DNA from: Amnibacterium kyonggiense
GTDB taxonomy: Bacteria > Actinomycetota > Actinomycetes > Actinomycetales > Microbacteriaceae
DNA: 64,000 bases
Reading direction: 5' to 3'
Assembly: GCF_004364555.1 (NCBI RefSeq)
Contig: NZ_SOAM01000002.1
Span: 682,001 to 746,000 of the forward strand
Positions within the stretch are counted from its first letter, which is position 1. Every line of letters begins with the position of its first letter. Shown piece by piece: positions 53,070 through 61,958 of the stretch. The notes under the pieces were generated by a model. It was given only the letters and a program-made list of their open reading frames with translations, was not told the origin of the DNA and did no database searches. The translations under genes and the position numbers were made by a program.

Positions 53070-53107
53070 CCCGTCATCCTCGCGCGCCGGTGCCCCAGAG
53101 TGGAGTC

Positions 53108-53620
53108 GTGCTCACCGACCTCCCGCTCCCCGCTCCGCTCGACACGAGGGACGGCGCGCTGACGCTGCGCCGGGCGTCCGCCGCGGACCTCGACGCGCTC
53201 GTCGCGCTGCTGTCGGACGACGCCGTCAGCGCGACGCGCGGCGACGTCGCCGACCCCGCGGACCTCCCCGCCTACGCCGCCGCGCTCGATGCGGTCCTCG
53301 CGGCGGAGGGCAACGACCTCCTGGTCGCGGTCGACGGCGACGAGGTGCTCGGCACCATGCAGCTCACCCGGATCCCGGGCATGGCGCGACGCGGCACCAC
53401 CCGCCTGCTGGTCGAGGCCGTCCGCGTGCGCAGCGACCGACGCTCCGCGGGCATCGGCGGTGCCATGCTGCGCTGGGTCCAGGAGGACGCGGCGCGCGCG
53501 CTCGACGCGGGGCTCGTGCAGCTCACGTCGGACGCGGCCCGGGAGGACGCGCACCGCTTCTACGAGCGCCTCGGCTTCGTCGGGTCGCACGTCGGCTTCA
53601 AGTACCGGCCCGCACCCTGA
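53108..53620 (+). CDS. GNAT-family acetyltransferase
   Basis: This 170-aa protein is a GCN5-related N-acetyltransferase. It has LTLRRASAADLDALVALLSD at the N-terminus, strand beta4 VLGTMQLTRIP and the acetyl-CoA motif VRSDRRSAGIGGAMLRW. RFYERLGFVGSHVGFKY is near the end. GTG at 53108 gives VLTDLPLPAP. It is divergent from the uridine-kinase-like gene (38-base gap) and ends at a perfect hairpin. The substrate is unknown. Confidence 0.88.
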   Translation: MLTDLPLPAPLDTRDGALTLRRASAADLDALVALLSDDAVSATRGDVADPADLPAYAAALDAVLAAEGNDLLVAVDGDEVLGTMQLTRIPGMARRGTTRLLVEAVRVRSDRRSAGIGGAMLRWVQEDAARALDAGLVQLTSDAAREDAHRFYERLGFVGSHVGFKYRPAP

Positions 53621-53690: not shown

Positions 53691-54368
53691 TCAGCGCTCG
53701 GTGGACAGAAGCTCCGGGACGTCGACCACGCTCGGGAGGAGGTGCGTGTGCCGCGCCTCGCCCAGCTCGGCGACGGTGTGGGCGCCGGTCAGCACCCCGA
53801 CCACGAAGCGGGCGCCCGCGCGCGTCCCGGCGGTCACGTCGTTGACCGTGTCGCCGGCGACGAGCACGTCGCGCACGTCGACCACGCCCGTCGCCTCCAT
53901 CGTCCGGAACACGAGGAACGGTGCGGGCCGGGAGGCGGTCACGTCCTCCGCGGTCGCGAGCGCGTCGACGTCGCGGCCGACGCGCCAGCCGACGACGTCG
54001 AGCAGCCCCTCGGCGACCTCCCGCCGGTAGCCGGTCTGCAGCGCGACCTTCACGCCCTGCGCGCGCAGCTGCTGCACCGTCTCTGCCACGCCCGGCAGCA
54101 GCACGGGCGGGTCCGCCTCGTACGCGGCGACCAGGTCGTCGGAGAACGCCGCGAAGATCCGGTCCGTCTGCGCGAGGTCCTCGTCGAGCGCGGTGAGGAT
54201 CCCGACGATCGCCTCGCGCTTGTCCGTGCCGCTCCACCGCGAGAGCAGGTCGTCCGGCACGTCGCGCCGCGTCGCGCGCTCGACCGCGGTGCGCAGGACC
54301 GCGTACACGGCGCCGCCCTCGTCGATGGTCGTGCCGGCCATGTCGAAGGAGGCGAGTCGGATCGTCAT
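53691..54368 (-). CDS. Phosphonatase-like HAD hydrolase
   Basis: This 225-aa HAD protein resembles phosphonoacetaldehyde hydrolase. It has the motif I nucleophile in FDMAGTTIDEGG (Asp9), a cap domain, VALQTGYRREVAEGLLDVVG, and the acidic motif VLVAGDTVNDVTAGTRAGAR. Lys50 in RWSGTDKREAI lies where phosphonatase has its Schiff-base lysine, but I cannot confirm equivalence. It is divergent from the FAD oxidase and transporter genes, a layout I recall from phosphonate-utilisation loci. It probably cleaves the C-P bond of phosphonoacetaldehyde or a related intermediate. ATG at 54368. Confidence 0.82.
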   Translation of the reverse strand: MTIRLASFDMAGTTIDEGGAVYAVLRTAVERATRRDVPDDLLSRWSGTDKREAIVGILTALDEDLAQTDRIFAAFSDDLVAAYEADPPVLLPGVAETVQQLRAQGVKVALQTGYRREVAEGLLDVVGWRVGRDVDALATAEDVTASRPAPFLVFRTMEATGVVDVRDVLVAGDTVNDVTAGTRAGARFVVGVLTGAHTVAELGEARHTHLLPSVVDVPELLSTER

Positions 54369-54531
54369 GAGCGCCGATCCTCTCGGGCGGCCCGAGCCGG
54401 GACGGCCTCGATCACCTGCTGTTCACCGGGAGTTCCCGCACCGCGCGCTCGGTGACGCGGAGGAGAACGCTCGATGAGCACTGCTTGGAATCGCCTCCGA
54501 AAGCCCCTCCGGCGCAGCATGCTCACGGCTC
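54369..54531. promoter_or_regulatory. Divergent promoter region of the phosphonate-type cluster
   Basis: This 163-base spacer has perfect short inverted repeats: ctcggg/cccgag at 54382-54396, tcaccg/cggtga at 54423-54455 and ggga/tccc at 54428-54437. A ctcac/gtgag pair overlaps the FAD-oxidase start. No regulator gene is adjacent, so control by a distant regulator such as a phosphate response system is possible. No clear -10/-35 pair was identified. Confidence 0.4.
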
Positions 54532-55647
54532 GTGGTGAGAAGCGGAGCCGACCTCGTGGTGGTCGGAGCGGGCATCGTCGGGCTGTCGCACGCCCTGCAC
54601 GCCGCCCGCGCAGGGCTCCGCGTCGTCGTGGTCGAGCGGGATGAGCGCGCCGTGGGTGCGAGCGTGCGCAACTTCGGCCACGTCTGCACCACCGCGCAGG
54701 CCGGCGAGGTCCTCGCCCTCGCCGAGACCGCGCGGGAGGAGTGGCTCCGCCTCGGTGCGGAGGCGGAGCTGCCCGTCCTGCAGCACGGCACGGTCGTCGT
54801 CGCCCGCACCGCCGCGCAGGCCCGGGTGCTCGACGAGTTCGCGGCCGAGCGCGGCGCCGCGGTCCGGCCGCTGACGCCCGCCGCGGCGGAGGGCCTGCTC
54901 GGCTTCGCGCCCGACGGGATCGTCGGCGCCGCGCACCTGCCCGCCGACCTGCGGGTCGACCCGCTCACGGCGAGCGCCCGGATCGCCGCGCACCTCGAGC
55001 GCCTCGGCGTCGAGGTCCGCTGGCGCACGAACGTCCTCTCGGTCGAGCCGGACCTCGTCCGCACCACGCGCGGCGACCTCGAGGCCGCCCGCGTCGTGCT
55101 CGCGGTCGGGCACGACGTCGACCGCTTCTTCCCCGACGTCGCGGACGAGCACCGGCTCGTGCGCTGCCGTCTGCGGATGCTGGAGGTCGACCCGCCGGCG
55201 GGCGCGCTGCTGCCCGCCGTGCTCACCGGCAGCTCGATGCTCCGCTACGACGGGCTCGCCCAGCAGCCCTCCGCGGCCGACGTGCGCGCCGAGCTGCTCG
55301 CCGAGTCGCCGGCGCTGCTCGAGCAGGGCGTCAACCTCATGCTCACCCAGCGGCCGGACGGCCGGCTCGTCATCGGCGACACGCACCACGCCGGCGTCAC
55401 GGAGGACCCCTTCGAGGACGAGTCGTCCGACGCCCTCGTGCTCGCCGAGATGGAGCGCCTCCTCGGTGCTCCGCTCACGGTCCGGCGTCGCTGGCGCGGC
55501 GTCTACGCCTCGAGCGCGAAGGCGCCCTTCCTCGTCACCGAGCCGCTGCCGGGCGTGACCGTCGCCTCGGTCACCACGGGCATCGGGATGACCACCGCGC
55601 TCGGTCTCGCCAAGCGGACCGTCGGCCAGCTCCTCGTCACGACCTGA
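54532..55647 (+). CDS. FAD-dependent oxidoreductase, aminophosphonate type
   Basis: This 371-aa DAO-family oxidase has the FAD motif LVVVGAGIVGLSHALHAARA (GAGIVG 12-17). It also has ASVRNFGHVCTTAQAGEV and the C-terminal cofactor segment SSAKAPFLVTEPLPGVTVAS. This subtype is found next to phosphonatase-like hydrolases and transporters. I recall relatives that oxidise N-methyl-aminoethylphosphonate or related amines to phosphonoacetaldehyde. The start is GTG at 54532; GTG at 54535 is equally possible, and both have a weak ribosome site. It is followed by the binding-protein gene after 65 bases. Confidence 0.88.
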   Translation: MVRSGADLVVVGAGIVGLSHALHAARAGLRVVVVERDERAVGASVRNFGHVCTTAQAGEVLALAETAREEWLRLGAEAELPVLQHGTVVVARTAAQARVLDEFAAERGAAVRPLTPAAAEGLLGFAPDGIVGAAHLPADLRVDPLTASARIAAHLERLGVEVRWRTNVLSVEPDLVRTTRGDLEAARVVLAVGHDVDRFFPDVADEHRLVRCRLRMLEVDPPAGALLPAVLTGSSMLRYDGLAQQPSAADVRAELLAESPALLEQGVNLMLTQRPDGRLVIGDTHHAGVTEDPFEDESSDALVLAEMERLLGAPLTVRRRWRGVYASSAKAPFLVTEPLPGVTVASVTTGIGMTTALGLAKRTVGQLLVTT

Positions 55648-55712
55648 CGGGTCCGAAGCCCCGGAGCCGGCGTCCGCCGGGTCCGGTCCCCCCACCAGGA
55701 GGAACCCCACAC

Positions 55713-56879
55713 ATGCACCGCTCCATCACCCGCCGCACGGTCGTGCGGGCCGCCTCGGCCCTCGCGCTCGCCGGCCTCACCGCCGCGTCGCTCGCGGCCT
55801 GCTCCGGCACCGCGTCCGCCGGCACCGCGAGCTCCGTCCCGAAGGCCTCCGCCGCCGTCGCCACGTCCGCGAAGGACTTCGGCGGCATGAAGGGGCTCGT
55901 CGCCGCCGCCGAGGCGGAGGGCAAGCTCAACGTCATCACCCTGCCGCCGTCGTGGGCGAACTACGGGAAGATCATCGCCGGCTTCGAGAAGAAGTACCCG
56001 AAGATCACGATCACCTCGCAGAACCCGAACGGCTCCTCGGCCGACGAGGTCGCCGCGATCAAGTCGCAGGGCACCGGCTCGAACGCGCCCGACGTCGTCG
56101 ACATCGGTACCGCGGTCCTCGACGCGAACAAGGACCTCTTCACGCCCTACAAGGTGCAGACCTGGGGCGACATCCCCACGGACTACAAGGACGCCGAGGG
56201 CCTCTGGTACTACGACTACACGGGCCTGATGTCGATCGGCTACGACTCCTCGAAGGTCAAGGCCCCGACGTCCCTCGCCGACCTGCTCGGCTCCGAGTAC
56301 AAGGGCAAGGTCGCGATCAAGGGCGACCCGACGCAGGCGAACGAGGCCGCGAGCGCGGTCTACCTCGCCGCGGTCCAGTCGGGCGGCAGCGCGGACGACG
56401 TCCAGCCGGGCGTCGACTTCTTCGGCAAGCTGAAGAAGGCCGGGAACATGATCTCGGTCCTCCCGACGCAGGCCACGGTGAACTCGGGCCAGACCCCGGT
56501 CGTCATCCAGTGGTCCTTCAACAACGTCGCGTGGGGCGCCGCGGGCGGCTCGACGGGCAACCCGAACTGGAAGACCGTCGTCCTCCCGGGCACCGCGATC
56601 GGCAGCTACTACAACCAGTCGATCAACAAGAACGCGCCGCACCCGGCCGCCGCCCGCCTGTGGGAGGAGTACATCTACTCCCCCGAGGTGCAGAACCTGT
56701 ACCTCGCGGCGGGGGCCTACCCGGCGCAGCTCGCGGCGATGCAGAAGGCCGGCACCGTCGACGAGTCCACGCTGAAGTCGGTCGGCGAGCCGCCGTCGAA
56801 CCTGGTCCAGCTCACCGCCGACCAGGCGACGAAGGCCGCCGACGTCCTCAAGTCCGGCTGGTCGAAGGCCATCGGCTGA
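55713..56879 (+). CDS. ABC transporter substrate-binding lipoprotein
   Basis: This 388-aa extracytoplasmic binding protein has a signal peptide with RRTVVRAASALALAGLTAAS and a lipobox ending at Cys30 (SLAAC). The RR context allows Tat export. The mature fold resembles the spermidine/ferric/aminoethylphosphonate-binding class: KLNVITLPPSWANYGKIIAG, NAPDVVDIGTAVLDANKDLF, GLMSIGYDSSKVKAPTSLAD. ATG at 55713 follows AGGAGGAA. With the genes on either side it probably captures an aminophosphonate or a glycerophosphodiester. Confidence 0.92.
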   Translation: MHRSITRRTVVRAASALALAGLTAASLAACSGTASAGTASSVPKASAAVATSAKDFGGMKGLVAAAEAEGKLNVITLPPSWANYGKIIAGFEKKYPKITITSQNPNGSSADEVAAIKSQGTGSNAPDVVDIGTAVLDANKDLFTPYKVQTWGDIPTDYKDAEGLWYYDYTGLMSIGYDSSKVKAPTSLADLLGSEYKGKVAIKGDPTQANEAASAVYLAAVQSGGSADDVQPGVDFFGKLKKAGNMISVLPTQATVNSGQTPVVIQWSFNNVAWGAAGGSTGNPNWKTVVLPGTAIGSYYNQSINKNAPHPAAARLWEEYIYSPEVQNLYLAAGAYPAQLAAMQKAGTVDESTLKSVGEPPSNLVQLTADQATKAADVLKSGWSKAIG

Positions 56880-56883
56880 CCCG

Positions 56884-57825
56884 ATGACGACCACCGCGCA
56901 GAAGACCCCGGCGGACACGGCCTCCGTGCCCGCCGGGGCCGAGCGGCCGGTGACGCGCGGCGCCGGAGGGACCCCCCTCCGGCGCCGCCGCGTCGGCTGG
57001 CTCGGGTTCGCCCCGTTCGGCGTGTACGTCCTGCTGTTCCTCGCCGTGCCGGGCCTCGTCGCGATCGCGAGCGGGTTCTTCGACGCGGACGGCCGGTTCA
57101 CGTTCGCCAACTTCGCGACGCTCGCGGACCCGACGATCCTGTCGAACTTCGCGGGCTCGATCTGGCTCTCCGCGGTCTCCGCGCTGATCAGCGCCGTCCT
57201 CGGCGTCCTCGTCTGCTGGGCGCTCACCGCCGCCCGACCGGACGGCCTCGTCCGCGCGATCGTCGACTCGGCGAGCAGCGTCTTCGCGCAGTTCGGCGGC
57301 GTCATGCTCGCCTTCGCCTGGATCGCGACGCTCGGCCAGAACGCGCTCGTCCCGGTGATCCTGAAGGCGGTCACCGGCGTCGACATCAACGCGAACGGGC
57401 CGATCCTCTACTCGGTGACCGGCCTGCTCTTCCCGTACGTCTACTTCGGCCTGCCGCTCTTCGTGCTGTCGTTCATGCCCGCGATGGACGGCCTCCGCCC
57501 GCAGTGGGGCGAGGCGGTTGCGACGCTCGGCGGGACGCGCCTCCACTACTGGCTCCGAGTCGGCCTCCCGGTGCTCGCGCCCGCCTTCTTCGGCAGCCTG
57601 ATCCTGCTGTTCGCGAACGCCTTCTCGTCCTACGCGACGGCGGCGGCGCTCATCTCGCAGGGCGGCATCATCCCGCTCGCCATCAAGCAGCAGCTCACCA
57701 GCGAGACGATCGTCGGCGTCGCGAACACCGCGGGCGTGCTCGCCCTCGGGATGGTCGTGATCATGGCGGTCCTCATGTCGCTCTACTCGGCACTCGACCG
57801 CCGCACGAGGAGGTGGCAGCGATGA
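56884..57825 (+). CDS. ABC transporter permease 1
   Basis: This 313-aa inner-membrane permease is of the binding-protein-dependent type. It has about six hydrophobic segments, beginning with FAPFGVYVLLFLAVPGLVAI. The EAA-like loop is EAVATLGGTRLHYWLRVGLP, the contact with the ATPase. A 35-residue basic, disordered-looking N-terminus precedes the first helix. ATG at 56884 is four bases after the binding protein. Its stop overlaps the second permease (ATGA). Confidence 0.93.
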   Translation: MTTTAQKTPADTASVPAGAERPVTRGAGGTPLRRRRVGWLGFAPFGVYVLLFLAVPGLVAIASGFFDADGRFTFANFATLADPTILSNFAGSIWLSAVSALISAVLGVLVCWALTAARPDGLVRAIVDSASSVFAQFGGVMLAFAWIATLGQNALVPVILKAVTGVDINANGPILYSVTGLLFPYVYFGLPLFVLSFMPAMDGLRPQWGEAVATLGGTRLHYWLRVGLPVLAPAFFGSLILLFANAFSSYATAAALISQGGIIPLAIKQQLTSETIVGVANTAGVLALGMVVIMAVLMSLYSALDRRTRRWQR

Positions 57826-58760
57826 CGACCGCTGCTGGGGCCCCCGCGGCCGGTTCCGACGCGTCGCGAAGCGACGTGACGGCCGTGCCCGTGGGGACCG
57901 CGCGCGTCGCCGACACCGTCGAGCCCCGGCCCCGCGGACGGCGTCCCCGCCGCGGGCGCTACGGGGCCGTGCCCTCGAAGACGACCGGCGCGATCGTCCT
58001 CATCGTCATCGGCGCGCTCTTCGCGGTGCCGATCGCAGCGCTGGCCTGGTTCAGCTTCACCACGGCGAGCACGGGCGCGTTCACGCTCAGCCACTACGCC
58101 GCACTCGTCGATCCGGCTCAGGCCTCGAACTACAGCGAACTCTTCGCCGGCATCGGCAACTCGCTGATCCTCGCGGTCATCGTCGTGGCGATCATCCTCG
58201 TGCTCCTGCTCCCGGCGATGCTGCTCGCGGAGCTGCGGTTCCCGAAGGTGCACCGGGTGCTCGAGTTCGTCTGCCTCCTGCCGATCACGGTCCCGACGAT
58301 CGTGCTCGTCGTCGGCTTCGTGCCGGTCTACCAGGTCGTGCAGAGCGTGCTCGGCAGCGACCCGTGGACGCTCTCCTTCGCGATCGGCGTCATCGTGCTG
58401 CCGTACGCGTACCGGCCGATCCAGGCGAACATCGGGGTGATGAACCTCACGATCCTGACGGAGGCCGCGCGCTCGCTCGGGGCCTCCTGGCCGGTCGCCG
58501 TGTGGCGGGTCGTGCTCCCGAACCTCCGCCGAGGGCTGCTGTCGGCGTGCCTGCTCACGATCTCCGTCGTGCTCGGCGAGTTCACCATCGCGAACTTCCT
58601 CGGGCAGAACACGTTCCAGACCGCGCTGCTGCTCCTGCAGCAGACCGACCCGTACGTCTCGGCGTTCCTCGCGGTCGTCTCGCTGCTCTTCGTCTTCGTG
58701 CTGCTCGTGGTCATCTCCACGGCGGGCTCGATCGGCCGTCCTCGAAAGAAGAAGTCATGA
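57822..58760 (+). CDS. ABC transporter permease 2
   Basis: This 312-aa permease is the partner of permease 1. It has about six hydrophobic segments from IVLIVIGALFAVPIAALAWF on and an EAA loop at EAARSLGASWPVAVWRVVLP. It also has a long charged N-terminus. ATG at 57822 overlaps permease 1, and its stop overlaps the ATPase start (ATGA), so the three are translationally linked. Confidence 0.93.
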   Translation: MTTAAGAPAAGSDASRSDVTAVPVGTARVADTVEPRPRGRRPRRGRYGAVPSKTTGAIVLIVIGALFAVPIAALAWFSFTTASTGAFTLSHYAALVDPAQASNYSELFAGIGNSLILAVIVVAIILVLLLPAMLLAELRFPKVHRVLEFVCLLPITVPTIVLVVGFVPVYQVVQSVLGSDPWTLSFAIGVIVLPYAYRPIQANIGVMNLTILTEAARSLGASWPVAVWRVVLPNLRRGLLSACLLTISVVLGEFTIANFLGQNTFQTALLLLQQTDPYVSAFLAVVSLLFVFVLLVVISTAGSIGRPRKKKS

Positions 58761-59830
58761 CCTCCACCGCCCCGACCCCCGCCGAGTCCCTCGTCGTCCG
58801 CGGCACGCCCGTCCAGCTCGTCGACGTCGTCAAGGACTACGGCACCGGCAGCCGCGCACTCGACGCGATCAGCCTCGAGATCCAGCCGGGCGAGTTCGTC
58901 GCCCTGCTCGGCCCGTCCGGCTGCGGCAAGACGACCGCGCTCCGGGCGATCAGCGGCCTCGAGACGATCGACGCCGGGCACGTCCGGATCGGCGGCGAGG
59001 ACGTCGAGGCCGTCCCGGTCCACAAGCGCGACATCGGGATGGTCTTCCAGTCGTACTCGCTGTTCCCGCACATGACGGTCGCGCAGAACGTCGCGTTCGG
59101 GCTGCAGATGCGGAAGGTGTCGAAGACGGAGAGCGTCAGGCGGGTGCAGGAGGCGCTCGAGCTCGTCGGGCTCGGCCACCTCGGCGAGCGCTACGCCCAC
59201 CAGCTGTCCGGCGGCCAGCAGCAGCGCGTCGCCCTGGCGCGGGCGCTCGTCACCCGGCCCCGCGTCCTGCTGCTCGACGAGCCGCTGTCGGCGCTCGACG
59301 CGAAGGTGCGCGTGCAGCTCCGCGACGAGATCCGGAAGATCCAGCAGGAGACGGGCATCACCGCCGTGTTCGTCACCCACGACCAGGAGGAGGCGCTCGC
59401 CGTCGCCGACCGCGTCGCCGTGATGAACGCGGGATCGATCGAGCAGATCGGGACGCCGGAGGACCTCTACCTGCGCCCGGCCACGGAGTTCGTCGCCGCG
59501 TTCGTCGGCCTGTCGAACCGCCTCGAGGGCGTGCTCGAGCACGGCCGCGTGGTCGTGGCGGGGCAGGACCTGGTGGCCCTCCCGAGCGAGCAGCAGGATG
59601 GGCCCGTGACCGCGTTCGTGCGTCCGGAGGACGTGCTCCTCGGCACGACCGGCCTGCCCGCGATCGTGATCTCGACGAGCTTCCTCGGCGCGCAGCGCCG
59701 CACGGTCGTGCAGCTCGAGGCCGGTCCCGCGCTGACGGTGCAGCACGCGACGAGCGAGCACCCGCAGCCGGGCGACCTCGTGCACGTCGCCTTCACCGGC
59801 CAGCCGGTCGCCGTCGCGCCGAGGGCATGA
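58757..59830 (+). CDS. ABC transporter ATP-binding protein
   Basis: This 357-aa ATPase drives the transporter. It has Walker A GPSGCGKTT (52-60), Q-loop VFQSYSLFPHMTVAQN, signature LSGGQQQRVALARAL and Walker B VLLLDEPLSALDAKV. A C-terminal TOBE domain (VTAFVRPEDVLLGTTGLPAI) follows, as in spermidine-, ferric- and phosphonate-type systems. ATG at 58757 overlaps permease 2, and its stop overlaps the GDPD start (ATGA). Confidence 0.95.
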   Translation: MTSTAPTPAESLVVRGTPVQLVDVVKDYGTGSRALDAISLEIQPGEFVALLGPSGCGKTTALRAISGLETIDAGHVRIGGEDVEAVPVHKRDIGMVFQSYSLFPHMTVAQNVAFGLQMRKVSKTESVRRVQEALELVGLGHLGERYAHQLSGGQQQRVALARALVTRPRVLLLDEPLSALDAKVRVQLRDEIRKIQQETGITAVFVTHDQEEALAVADRVAVMNAGSIEQIGTPEDLYLRPATEFVAAFVGLSNRLEGVLEHGRVVVAGQDLVALPSEQQDGPVTAFVRPEDVLLGTTGLPAIVISTSFLGAQRRTVVQLEAGPALTVQHATSEHPQPGDLVHVAFTGQPVAVAPRA

Positions 59831-60690
59831 CGCGGCCGCTCGTCCTCGGGCACCGGGGCGCCTGCGGGTACCTCCCCGAGCTCACCGACGGCGCCCTGCG
59901 GCTCGCGGCCGAGCTGGGCGCCGACGGCGTGGAGATCGACGTCGTCCCGACGCGCGACGGGCGGCTCGTCGTGCGGCACGACCGGGTGCTCACGCCCACG
60001 ACCGACGCCGACGCGGTGCTCGGCGCCGAGGTGCGGGTCGACGACGTCACCTGGGCCGACGTCCGGCGGCTCCGCGCCCGCGAGCGGTACCCCGACCTCC
60101 GGCCGTCGAGCGCCGAGCACGACGGCGAGGAGCCGCTGCTGGTGCTGCCCGACGTCGTCCGGCTCGCGGAGCAGCTCGACCTGCTGCTCGTCGTCGAGAT
60201 CAAGGACGCCGCCGCGTTCGCCGCCGTCGGGCTCGACCCCGCGCCGCTCGTCGCGCGCGACCTCGACGGCGCCGGCTGCGGGATCGTGCTCGAGAGCTTC
60301 GAGAAGACGCCGCTCGACGCGCTCGCCCCGCTCGCGCACCCGGCGATGTACCTCGTCGACGACGAGGGCGGGGCGCCCGACGAGACCCGCACGTACGCGG
60401 AGGAGCTCGCGGACCCGGCCGGCCTGCGCCGCTTCGCCGGCGTGAGCCTCGCGACCTCCCTGGTGACGCCGGAGCGCGTCGCCGTCCTGCACGCCGCAGG
60501 GCTCGACGTGTGGACGTGGACGCTGCGGCCCGAGAACCGGTTCCTGCCCCCGGAGCACCGCCGCGGCGCCGACCCGGCCGCGCCAGGCGACTGGCGAGCG
60601 CACTGGGGCGCGATCGTCGACGCCGGCGTCGACGGGGTCTTCGCCGACCACCCCGACCTCGCGGTCGCCCTGCTGGACCTTCCCCGCTGA
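59827..60690 (+). CDS. Glycerophosphodiester phosphodiesterase
   Basis: This 287-aa GDPD-fold enzyme hydrolyses glycerophosphodiesters to glycerol 3-phosphate and an alcohol. It has GHRGACGYLPELTDGAL (general acid His region; the usual PENT reads PELT), DGVEIDVVPTRDGRLVVRHD and LLVVEIKDAAAF. There is no signal peptide, so the substrate is imported. ATG at 59827 overlaps the ATPase stop. Its inclusion suggests the transporter carries a phosphodiester or that one unit handles several organophosphorus compounds. Confidence 0.92.
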   Translation: MTRPLVLGHRGACGYLPELTDGALRLAAELGADGVEIDVVPTRDGRLVVRHDRVLTPTTDADAVLGAEVRVDDVTWADVRRLRARERYPDLRPSSAEHDGEEPLLVLPDVVRLAEQLDLLLVVEIKDAAAFAAVGLDPAPLVARDLDGAGCGIVLESFEKTPLDALAPLAHPAMYLVDDEGGAPDETRTYAEELADPAGLRRFAGVSLATSLVTPERVAVLHAAGLDVWTWTLRPENRFLPPEHRRGADPAAPGDWRAHWGAIVDAGVDGVFADHPDLAVALLDLPR

Positions 60691-60714: not shown

Positions 60715-61311
60715 GTGCCCGCGCACGCCCCGACGGAGGAGCTGCGGCTCCGGCTGTACCGGCCGGATCCGCCCGACGGCGCGCTCGAGGCCTACCTGCT
60801 GGCGATGGCCGAGACGCCCGCGCCGGCCGCCGCGCCGCGGCGCGAACGCGCGTCCGCGCGGCCCGGGGTCACGGCGCTCGCCGCAGCCCTCGCGCTCGGC
60901 GGCGCCGCCGCGCTCGTCGCGGCCGCCCTCGCGGTCGGATCGGTCGCCGGCGACCAGACCGGGGAGACCGCGTCGACCGGACCGACGACGGTCGCGCTCG
61001 GCCCGTCGGGACGGGTCCCCCTGCCGCCGTCCACCGGGGTGCCGCTCGGCACGCTGTTCGACGACGCGGGGAGCACGGCGCGGTTCGACGCCGCCGGCCG
61101 CACGGCGGTGATCAGCGTCAACTGCGTCGGCGACGGCACGCTGTCGGTGCGCGTGGCCGACGAGCCGCCGACGGTCCTGACGTGCCAGATCGGCGGTCCG
61201 GCGCTCGCGATGCTGCCGAGTACGACGCCGCTCCACCGGTTCGCGGTCGCGGTGACGCGCGACGGCCGCGTGCGGTGGTCGCTCGCAGCCGGCACCCTGC
61301 CCGGCGCCTGA
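60715..61311 (+). CDS. Tandem paralogue 1, single-pass membrane protein of unknown function
   Basis: This 198-aa protein starts with a conserved-looking RLRLYRPDPPDGALEAYLLA. One transmembrane segment follows (ALAAALALGGAAALVAAALA), then an outside domain of about 120 residues with two cysteines (VNCVGDG, LTCQIGG). The next gene has the same three-part layout and similar N-terminal helix, so they are tandem duplicates. GTG at 60715. I do not recognise a family; a secreted sensor, inhibitor or envelope anchor are all possible. Confidence 0.75.
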   Translation: MPAHAPTEELRLRLYRPDPPDGALEAYLLAMAETPAPAAAPRRERASARPGVTALAAALALGGAAALVAAALAVGSVAGDQTGETASTGPTTVALGPSGRVPLPPSTGVPLGTLFDDAGSTARFDAAGRTAVISVNCVGDGTLSVRVADEPPTVLTCQIGGPALAMLPSTTPLHRFAVAVTRDGRVRWSLAAGTLPGA

Positions 61312-61355: not shown

Positions 61356-61958
61356 GTGGCCATCGACGACGAGCCGGACGAGCGCGAGCTCGCCGCCAAG
61401 CGCGCGGCGCTCTACCGCCCCGGTGCCGCGCCGGAGGCCCTCCAGGACTACCTCGCCGCGCAGGACCGGGCCGCGGCCGAGCGGGCGCCGGCCCTCGCCG
61501 AGCAGCCGACCTCCTCGGAGCCTCCCGTGCCCGCGCGCCGCCGGCGGATCGCCGGGCCCCTGCTCGTCGTCGGCGCCGTCGCGGTCTTCGCCGTCGCGGC
61601 GGTCGCGGTCGGCGTGGTCGCCCGCGGGCAGGCCGTACCGCCGGCGCCCGCCGAGACCGACGCGCCCTTCCCGCCGGTGCCGGGCACGCCGATCGGCGAA
61701 CTCGTCGGCGGCGCGGCCCGCACCGCCGTGTTCGACGCCGGTGGCAGCGGCGCCGTGGTCGCCCTGCACTGCAGCGGCACCGGGACGATCACGGTGCAGA
61801 TCGCGGACGACCCGGTCGGCCGCTACGCGTGCGCCGAGGGCCGGAACGGCGGCATCCGGCGCTCGAGCCTCGAGCTCCAGGGCCGGTTCGCCGTGCGCGT
61901 CACCGCGAGCGGGTCCGCGGACTGGGCGCTCACCGTCGGGGCGCTGCCCCGCGGCTGA
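61356..61958 (+). CDS. Tandem paralogue 2, single-pass membrane protein of unknown function
   Basis: This 200-aa protein repeats the layout of its neighbour. It has KRAALYRPGAAPEALQDYLA at the N-terminus, one transmembrane segment (PLLVVGAVAVFAVAAVAVGV), and an outside domain with paired cysteines (LHCSGTG, YACAEGR). GTG at 61356. The linked pair ends block 2 and is convergent with nusB, with only three bases between the stops. Function is unknown. Confidence 0.75.
   Translation: MAIDDEPDERELAAKRAALYRPGAAPEALQDYLAAQDRAAAERAPALAEQPTSSEPPVPARRRRIAGPLLVVGAVAVFAVAAVAVGVVARGQAVPPAPAETDAPFPPVPGTPIGELVGGAARTAVFDAGGSGAVVALHCSGTGTITVQIADDPVGRYACAEGRNGGIRRSSLELQGRFAVRVTASGSADWALTVGALPRG

Follow-up and report, generated by a model that had tools for sequence, protein, structure and literature searches.

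Genes and predicted regulatory sites at the locus

The window analysed here, a stretch of 64,000 nucleotides from Amnibacterium kyonggiense (contig NZ_SOAM01000002.1, positions 682,001 to 746,000), holds a gene for a phosphonatase-like HAD hydrolase that faces away from a run of six genes, which encode a FAD-dependent oxidase, a binding-protein ABC transporter and a glycerophosphodiester phosphodiesterase (GDPD) (Table 1). All seven open reading frames named in an earlier note lie where it placed them, and the phosphonatase-like HAD, FAD oxidase and binding-protein ABC transporter that it described were confirmed by the reading frames and, for the HAD and the oxidase, by curated family cut-offs. 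Four-base overlaps occur at three junctions (permease 1/permease 2, permease 2/ATPase and ATPase/GDPD). The note had taken the GDPD to be translationally coupled to the ATPase; the overlap is present, but because two other operon junctions overlap likewise, such overlaps are usual in this operon and the one before the GDPD is weak evidence. Beyond the HAD gene lies a GNAT acetyltransferase gene (53090-53620, plus strand) with a weak match (36 against 142 bits) to the aminoalkylphosphonate N-acetyltransferase PhnO. In genome G159 its close homolog stands at the opposite end of the cluster, past the GDPD and one further ORF, and no further match was found in the neighbourhoods searched.

Table 1 Genes and predicted PHO-box-like sites of the cluster (window coordinates)
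Feature	Position	Strand	Description
Phosphonatase-like HAD hydrolase	53691..54368	-	225 aa; TIGR03351; K50 as counterpart of the Schiff-base lysine
PHO-box-like site, three 11-nt units	54410..54438	+	3/21 mismatches; 93 nt 5' of oxidase start; predicted
Opposed PHO-box-like site	54451..54479	-	5/21 mismatches; upstream of HAD gene; weaker than + site; predicted
FAD-dependent oxidase, PbfD type	54532..55647	+	371 aa, GTG start; TIGR03364
Lipoprotein substrate-binding protein (SBP)	55713..56879	+	388 aa; LAAC lipobox; PF13343
ABC permease 1	56884..57825	+	below every curated cut-off listed
ABC permease 2	57822..58760	+	best model PhnV, under cut-off
ABC ATPase	58757..59830	+	best model PhnT2, 393.5 vs 457.7 bits (below cut-off)
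Glycerophosphodiester phosphodiesterase (GDPD)	59827..60690	+	PF03009; catalytic motifs present; no signal peptide seen

The HAD hydrolase scored 268.8 bits in a profile search with TIGR03351, above the curated cut-off of 218.9, and 93.2 bits with the PhnX model TIGR01422, under the curated cut-off of 220. It aligns with phosphonoacetaldehyde hydrolase structures. Among 119 HADs, drawn from the 119 of 130 oxidase neighbourhoods that gave a HAD match, the equivalents of the nucleophile Asp, the Schiff-base Lys, Thr126 and Arg160 were kept in every case, and two later Asp residues in 118, with one gap. The Schiff-base lysine and HAD Asp residues expected of phosphonatase chemistry are thus in place, but the equivalent of PhnX His56 is not kept, being Ala (45) or Val (74) in all 119 HADs, a consistent departure from PhnX. 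Because this residue is replaced throughout, the substrate or kinetics of the hydrolase may differ from those of PhnX. A search of the open-licence literature found no experimental paper on a TIGR03351 hydrolase.

The oxidase matched TIGR03364 with 382.9 bits over positions 7-362, above the curated cut-off of 285.1, and by tblastn it is 29-30% identical to three Acinetobacter baumannii records. In PMC10590968 two PbfD enzymes were shown to yield phosphonoacetaldehyde by oxidation of N-methyl-aminoethylphosphonate (N-methyl-AEP) and of AEP, O2 being the acceptor; PbfD1 is annotated there as TIGR03364, and some enzymes of this type stand in for PhnW where PhnW is missing. The earlier note had reported no AEP transaminase; in the window's genome no match to the PhnW model passed its cut-off (best 74.5 bits against 400.8), and PhnJ of C-P lyase was not found there. 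Because of the PbfD biochemistry, the lack of PhnW over cut-off and the lack of PhnJ, the note's view of the FAD oxidase as the source of the aldehyde stands on grounds of homology. Together with the TIGR03351 and TIGR03364 cut-offs and the HAD residues, these results leave the proposed oxidative aminophosphonate catabolism well supported, and membership in TIGR03364 and the PbfD biochemistry likewise favour the suggested N-substituted route, as possible use of N-methyl-AEP. For the PbfD family such a route is already in print (PMC10590968), and the oxidative (N-methyl-)AEP pathway predicted here is well supported as a known route in a little-studied actinobacterial form, not as a new one.

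The SBP matched PF13343 (80.2 bits, cut-off 24.6), a domain common to iron-binding and other binding proteins besides AepX/AepS. It had no match to SBP_bac_1 and so does not resemble the UgpB-type binding protein of a Ugp system. The best models were those of AEP transport for the ATPase (PhnT2) and permease 2 (PhnV) and sulfate models for permease 1, all below cut-off, and none of the curated cut-offs of PhnT, PhnT2, PhnU and PhnV was reached by the transporter genes of the window.

Distribution of the core and its PHO-box-like sites

The oxidase was found at E<=1e-60 in 88 of 299 genomes of the window's family and in 70 of 394 genomes of a class sample that overlaps part of the family sample. 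The 130 neighbourhoods comprise all 91 family places except one on a duplicate contig, hence 90, and 40 of 63 further class places. Within the family, HAD and oxidase lie on opposite strands in 33 neighbourhoods, 27 of these with a window-type binding protein; the HAD lies on the oxidase strand, without such a binding protein, in 46; and no HAD match was found in 11. The 40 other class neighbourhoods divide into 13 with opposite strands (5 with a window-type binding protein) and 27 with the same strand (6 with one). On a Comamonas plasmid, a TIGR03364 gene adjoins canonical phnX. The core of HAD, oxidase and binding-protein ABC transporter is a known kind of module; should its assignment here prove correct, many actinobacteria would share the PbfD type of aminophosphonate use, with the TIGR03351 hydrolase.

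Of all three-unit PHO-box-like sites in the window, the two with the fewest mismatches both lie in the 163-nt HAD/oxidase intergenic region, on opposite strands. Scoring used a 7-base PHO-box consensus word. None of 15 simulated 64-kb sequences had a site with <=5 mismatches, and the expectation at 6 was 0.8. In a set of 28 short divergent regions between HAD and oxidase, that of the window among them, the best site had 5.46 mismatches on average at period 11, whereas the averages for the remaining periods between 8 and 15 were 8.43-9.25. At period 11, 12 of the 28 regions had <=5 mismatches, compared with 0 or 1 at other periods and an average of 0.03 in 100 shuffles; these regions are related to each other and not independent, and 16 of them fall short of this threshold. 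In a wider set of HAD/oxidase regions, 16 of the 43 scanned (a 44th was too long) had <=5 mismatches, against about 1% of random windows of the same length. The period agrees with the 11-nt direct-repeat design of the PHO box given in PMC7866108.

A genome-wide search with a two-unit pattern, the first unit of which was allowed to vary so as to fit the operon site, returned 8 sites at <=1 mismatch (4 of them without mismatch) and none for the reversed pattern. They include the site of the HAD/oxidase operon, a second upstream of a PstS homolog (201.9 bits, slightly short of the cut-off of 205; PF12849, 153.8 bits) and a third upstream of a PF04185 phosphoesterase. At the remaining sites of the window's genome, G000 (C1:25193, C3:407034, C1:741653, C1:743968 and C1:1140050), the neighbouring genes have no clear phosphate link. 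The two opposed PHO-box-like sites in the HAD/oxidase region are new here, and among the open-licence titles listed none concerned PHO boxes at actinobacterial TIGR03351/TIGR03364 clusters. Upstream 11-nt direct repeats, as in the actinobacterial Pho regulon, are present and PhoP binding is predicted; the computational evidence for phosphate control is good, and the operon is probably switched on by phosphate starvation. If this is right, actinobacterial TIGR03351/TIGR03364 clusters carry in these sites a concrete sign, open to test, of belonging to the phosphate-starvation regulon.

The glycerophosphodiester phosphodiesterase

The GDPD scored 106.3 bits against PF03009 (cut-off 23.6), and the window copy has the catalytic motifs H-R-G, E-x-D, H and E-x-K. 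A profile built from 71 GDPDs found a GDPD in 3 of the 130 oxidase neighbourhoods, all from the window's genus; the 127 without one include L096, cut by a contig end, whose other part carries a GDPD. A fourth genome, G292, has its cluster divided between two contig ends, and the piece that carries transporter and GDPD was found separately. The cluster of G016 (L041, same genus) is without a GDPD, the nearest copy being unlinked, and two of the seven genomes of the genus had no oxidase at E<=1e-60. A conserved partnership of the GDPD with the core was rejected by this census. The nearest named matches, eleven Curtobacterium GDPDs, sit away from all six other cluster genes. The linked copies cluster together in the tree (support 93/97, under the tool's own star threshold), separate from a paralog in a second conserved gene block of the same genomes. 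The cluster sits between pyrimidine genes and nusB-efp-aroQ in three genomes; in G292 neither set of neighbours is present within the 24 kb examined and the GDPD is still attached, and attachment at two chromosomal sites favours a function. A PHROGs search of the GDPD gave two weak, uninformative matches only, and none of the open-licence titles listed told of a GDPD attached to a TIGR03351/TIGR03364 cluster. The GDPD is a genus-level addition to the operon.

Other genes were seen at or near the corresponding position. Tandem genes of the window (60715-61311 and 61356-61958, plus strand) encode related proteins of about 200 aa that share an LYRP motif, the first of which had no Pfam match at E<=0.001; homologs come after the GDPD in G159 and G097, and the pair may have been added within the genus along with it. 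In G141 a PF01663 phosphodiesterase-superfamily gene (L040:14038-14862) follows the ATPase at the place of the window's GDPD, a single case. The genes after the ATPase in at least 8 other relatives resemble an AI-2E-type transporter and a threonine dehydratase, judged by length and in two cases by eye. G254, another genome of the genus, has a Ugp-like pairing in which an SBP_bac_1 binding-protein gene stands immediately before a related GDPD (L226:7440-9783).

In each of five genome pairs the GDPD exceeded the other six cluster genes in dN, and in four of the pairs also in dN/dS, permease 2 being marginally above it in G159-G097; its dN/dS, at 0.38-0.61, stayed below 1. In the G000-G159 pair, GDPD identity was 76% with a ratio of 0.38; in the six other genes identity ranged over 83-93% and the ratio over 0.11-0.22. 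The linked GDPD of G159 (L230:3311-4114) lacks 22 residues in frame, including the E-x-D metal ligands, which may reflect a real deletion or an assembly fault; the catalytic motifs are intact in the other three of four linked copies. Five columns passed the test for changes specific to linked copies, none within the catalytic motifs. The upstream regions of five of the eight unlinked GDPD genes of the genus were scanned, and none held a PHO box (best 7-9/21 mismatches). Since these copies are without a PHO box, joining the operon would newly place a GDPD under phosphate control.

The earlier note had also suggested a transporter serving both phosphonates and phosphodiesters. The SBPs of the three GDPD-bearing clusters (that of G292, split over two contigs, was left out) keep 153 of 156 columns that are invariant across ten GDPD-less family members, the changed columns including A115I and F128V. 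Ten columns depart in the GDPD-bearing members, two of them within the signal peptide, a stretch with gaps in most relatives. Among the eight in the mature part, positions 119, 120, 121, 123 and 181 are common to the GDPD-less L041, and 115, 128 and 137 are not found there. The alignment thus gives no clear sign of a changed ligand, and the retained columns, the 127 neighbourhoods without a GDPD and L041 do not support a dual-substrate transporter, which was set aside.

Interpretation and known systems

We favour, with a probability of about 0.68, a Pho-controlled operon that harvests phosphorus from aminophosphonates and at the end of which a GDPD paralog was captured in the window's genus. 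Under low phosphate, PhoP would bind the two PHO boxes and both promoters would fire. The lipoprotein and ABC transporter would import AEP and/or N-methyl-AEP, the PbfD-type oxidase would convert these to phosphonoacetaldehyde with release of ammonia or methylamine, and the lysine-dependent HAD would cleave phosphonoacetaldehyde to acetaldehyde and phosphate. The captured GDPD would thereby come under Pho control and most likely hydrolyse intracellular glycerophosphodiesters to glycerol-3-phosphate, a parallel phosphorus-saving step. This account draws on the TIGR cut-offs, the HAD residues, the lack of PhnW over cut-off and of PhnJ, an SBP in the Pfam family of AepX/AepS, the AEP-annotated core of Tsukamurella described below, the period-11 PHO boxes, the pstS site, the GDPD at two chromosomal sites and the lack of a PHO box at five of eight unlinked GDPD genes. 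Against it count the sub-cut-off transporter models, the replacement of His56 in 119/119 HADs, the absence of the GDPD from one cluster of the genus and loss of its metal-ligand segment in another, the genes without evident phosphorus role that also follow the ATPase in relatives, and the PHO-box sites that adjoin genes without clear phosphate link.

Some rival readings concern the GDPD. It could be a passenger: having come to lie after the ATPase gene, the paralog would be in decay or merely tolerated there and play no part in the operon, as its high dN in 5/5 pairs, the missing residues in G159, the lack of a linked copy in G016 and the unrelated genes after the ATPase in other genera would suggest; a dN/dS below 1, intact motifs in 3/4 linked copies and attachment at two different chromosomal sites speak against this, and we consider it a real but minority possibility. 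That the transporter also imports glycerophosphodiesters for cleavage inside, like UgpBAEC with UgpQ, is unlikely: the GDPD does follow the ATPase gene directly, as in E. coli ugpBAECQ, and glpQ of C. glutamicum is linked to a phosphate-responsive ugp operon (both in PMC7866108), but the SBP belongs to PF13343, not SBP_bac_1, and keeps nearly all family-invariant columns. We take the GDPD to have been recruited, as an enzyme, to a Pho-controlled operon and do not see in it evidence that the transporter has two kinds of substrate. It shows how another phosphorus enzyme can enter such an operon within one genus, and is a caution against inferring a common substrate from operon adjacency. A GDPD acting on glycerol esters of AEP (deacylated phosphonolipid) that the transporter had brought in intact, and so feeding AEP to the oxidase, would make a phosphonolipid-to-phosphate route within one operon. 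In ordinary GDPD chemistry, the glycerol hydroxyl attacks and the head-group alcohol is expelled; because a C-P-linked head group cannot leave in this way, we hold this idea to be highly improbable.

Two further readings concern the substrates of the core. The transporter might carry iron or polyamines, the cluster being only partly a phosphonate unit, since the models matched by the ATPase and the permeases include PotA, ferric and sulfate ones and several SBP profile matches are iron-binding proteins. Of the two tyrosines that serve as iron ligands, no more than one has an aromatic counterpart (F/Y) in the SBP family, the other aligning with N or a gap. An iron transporter was set aside on these residues, a weak ground, as two iron-protein alignments disagree there; PHO boxes and phosphonate enzymes also frame the cluster, and this reading appears very unlikely. 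The oxidase and HAD might act mainly on 1-hydroxy-AEP, giving hydroxyphosphonoacetaldehyde, according to the TIGR03364 description quoted in PMC10590968, and the HAD is consistently unlike PhnX at His56. Purified PbfD enzymes, however, convert N-methyl-AEP and AEP to phosphonoacetaldehyde (PMC10590968), and TIGR03364 also adjoins canonical phnX, so that we regard this substrate as doubtful.

Among known systems, E. coli ugpBAECQ and C. glutamicum glpQ-ugp (PMC7866108) resemble the favoured Pho-controlled operon in having a GDPD beside an ABC transporter in a phosphate-responsive unit; they differ in that the window's SBP is of another Pfam family, phosphonate enzymes are present and the GDPD is confined to one genus. 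The AEP transporters AepXVW and AepSTU share a PF13343 binding protein, but are described in PMC8316502 as phosphate-insensitive, whereas the window's cluster has PHO-box-like sites. On the Tsukamurella plasmid NZ_LR134449, a phosphonatase-like HAD hydrolase gene is likewise divergent from a TIGR03364 oxidase gene that is followed by an AEP-annotated ABC transporter; there, unlike in the window, a GntR gene adjoins the HAD, the ATPase precedes the permeases and the GDPD is absent. The PbfD-phnX clusters (PMC10590968) combine, as here, a TIGR03364 oxidase with a HAD-superfamily phosphonatase and no PhnW, with oxidative supply of phosphonoacetaldehyde; the window's cluster departs from them in its TIGR03351 hydrolase in place of PhnX, its actinobacterial setting, its PHO boxes and its added GDPD.
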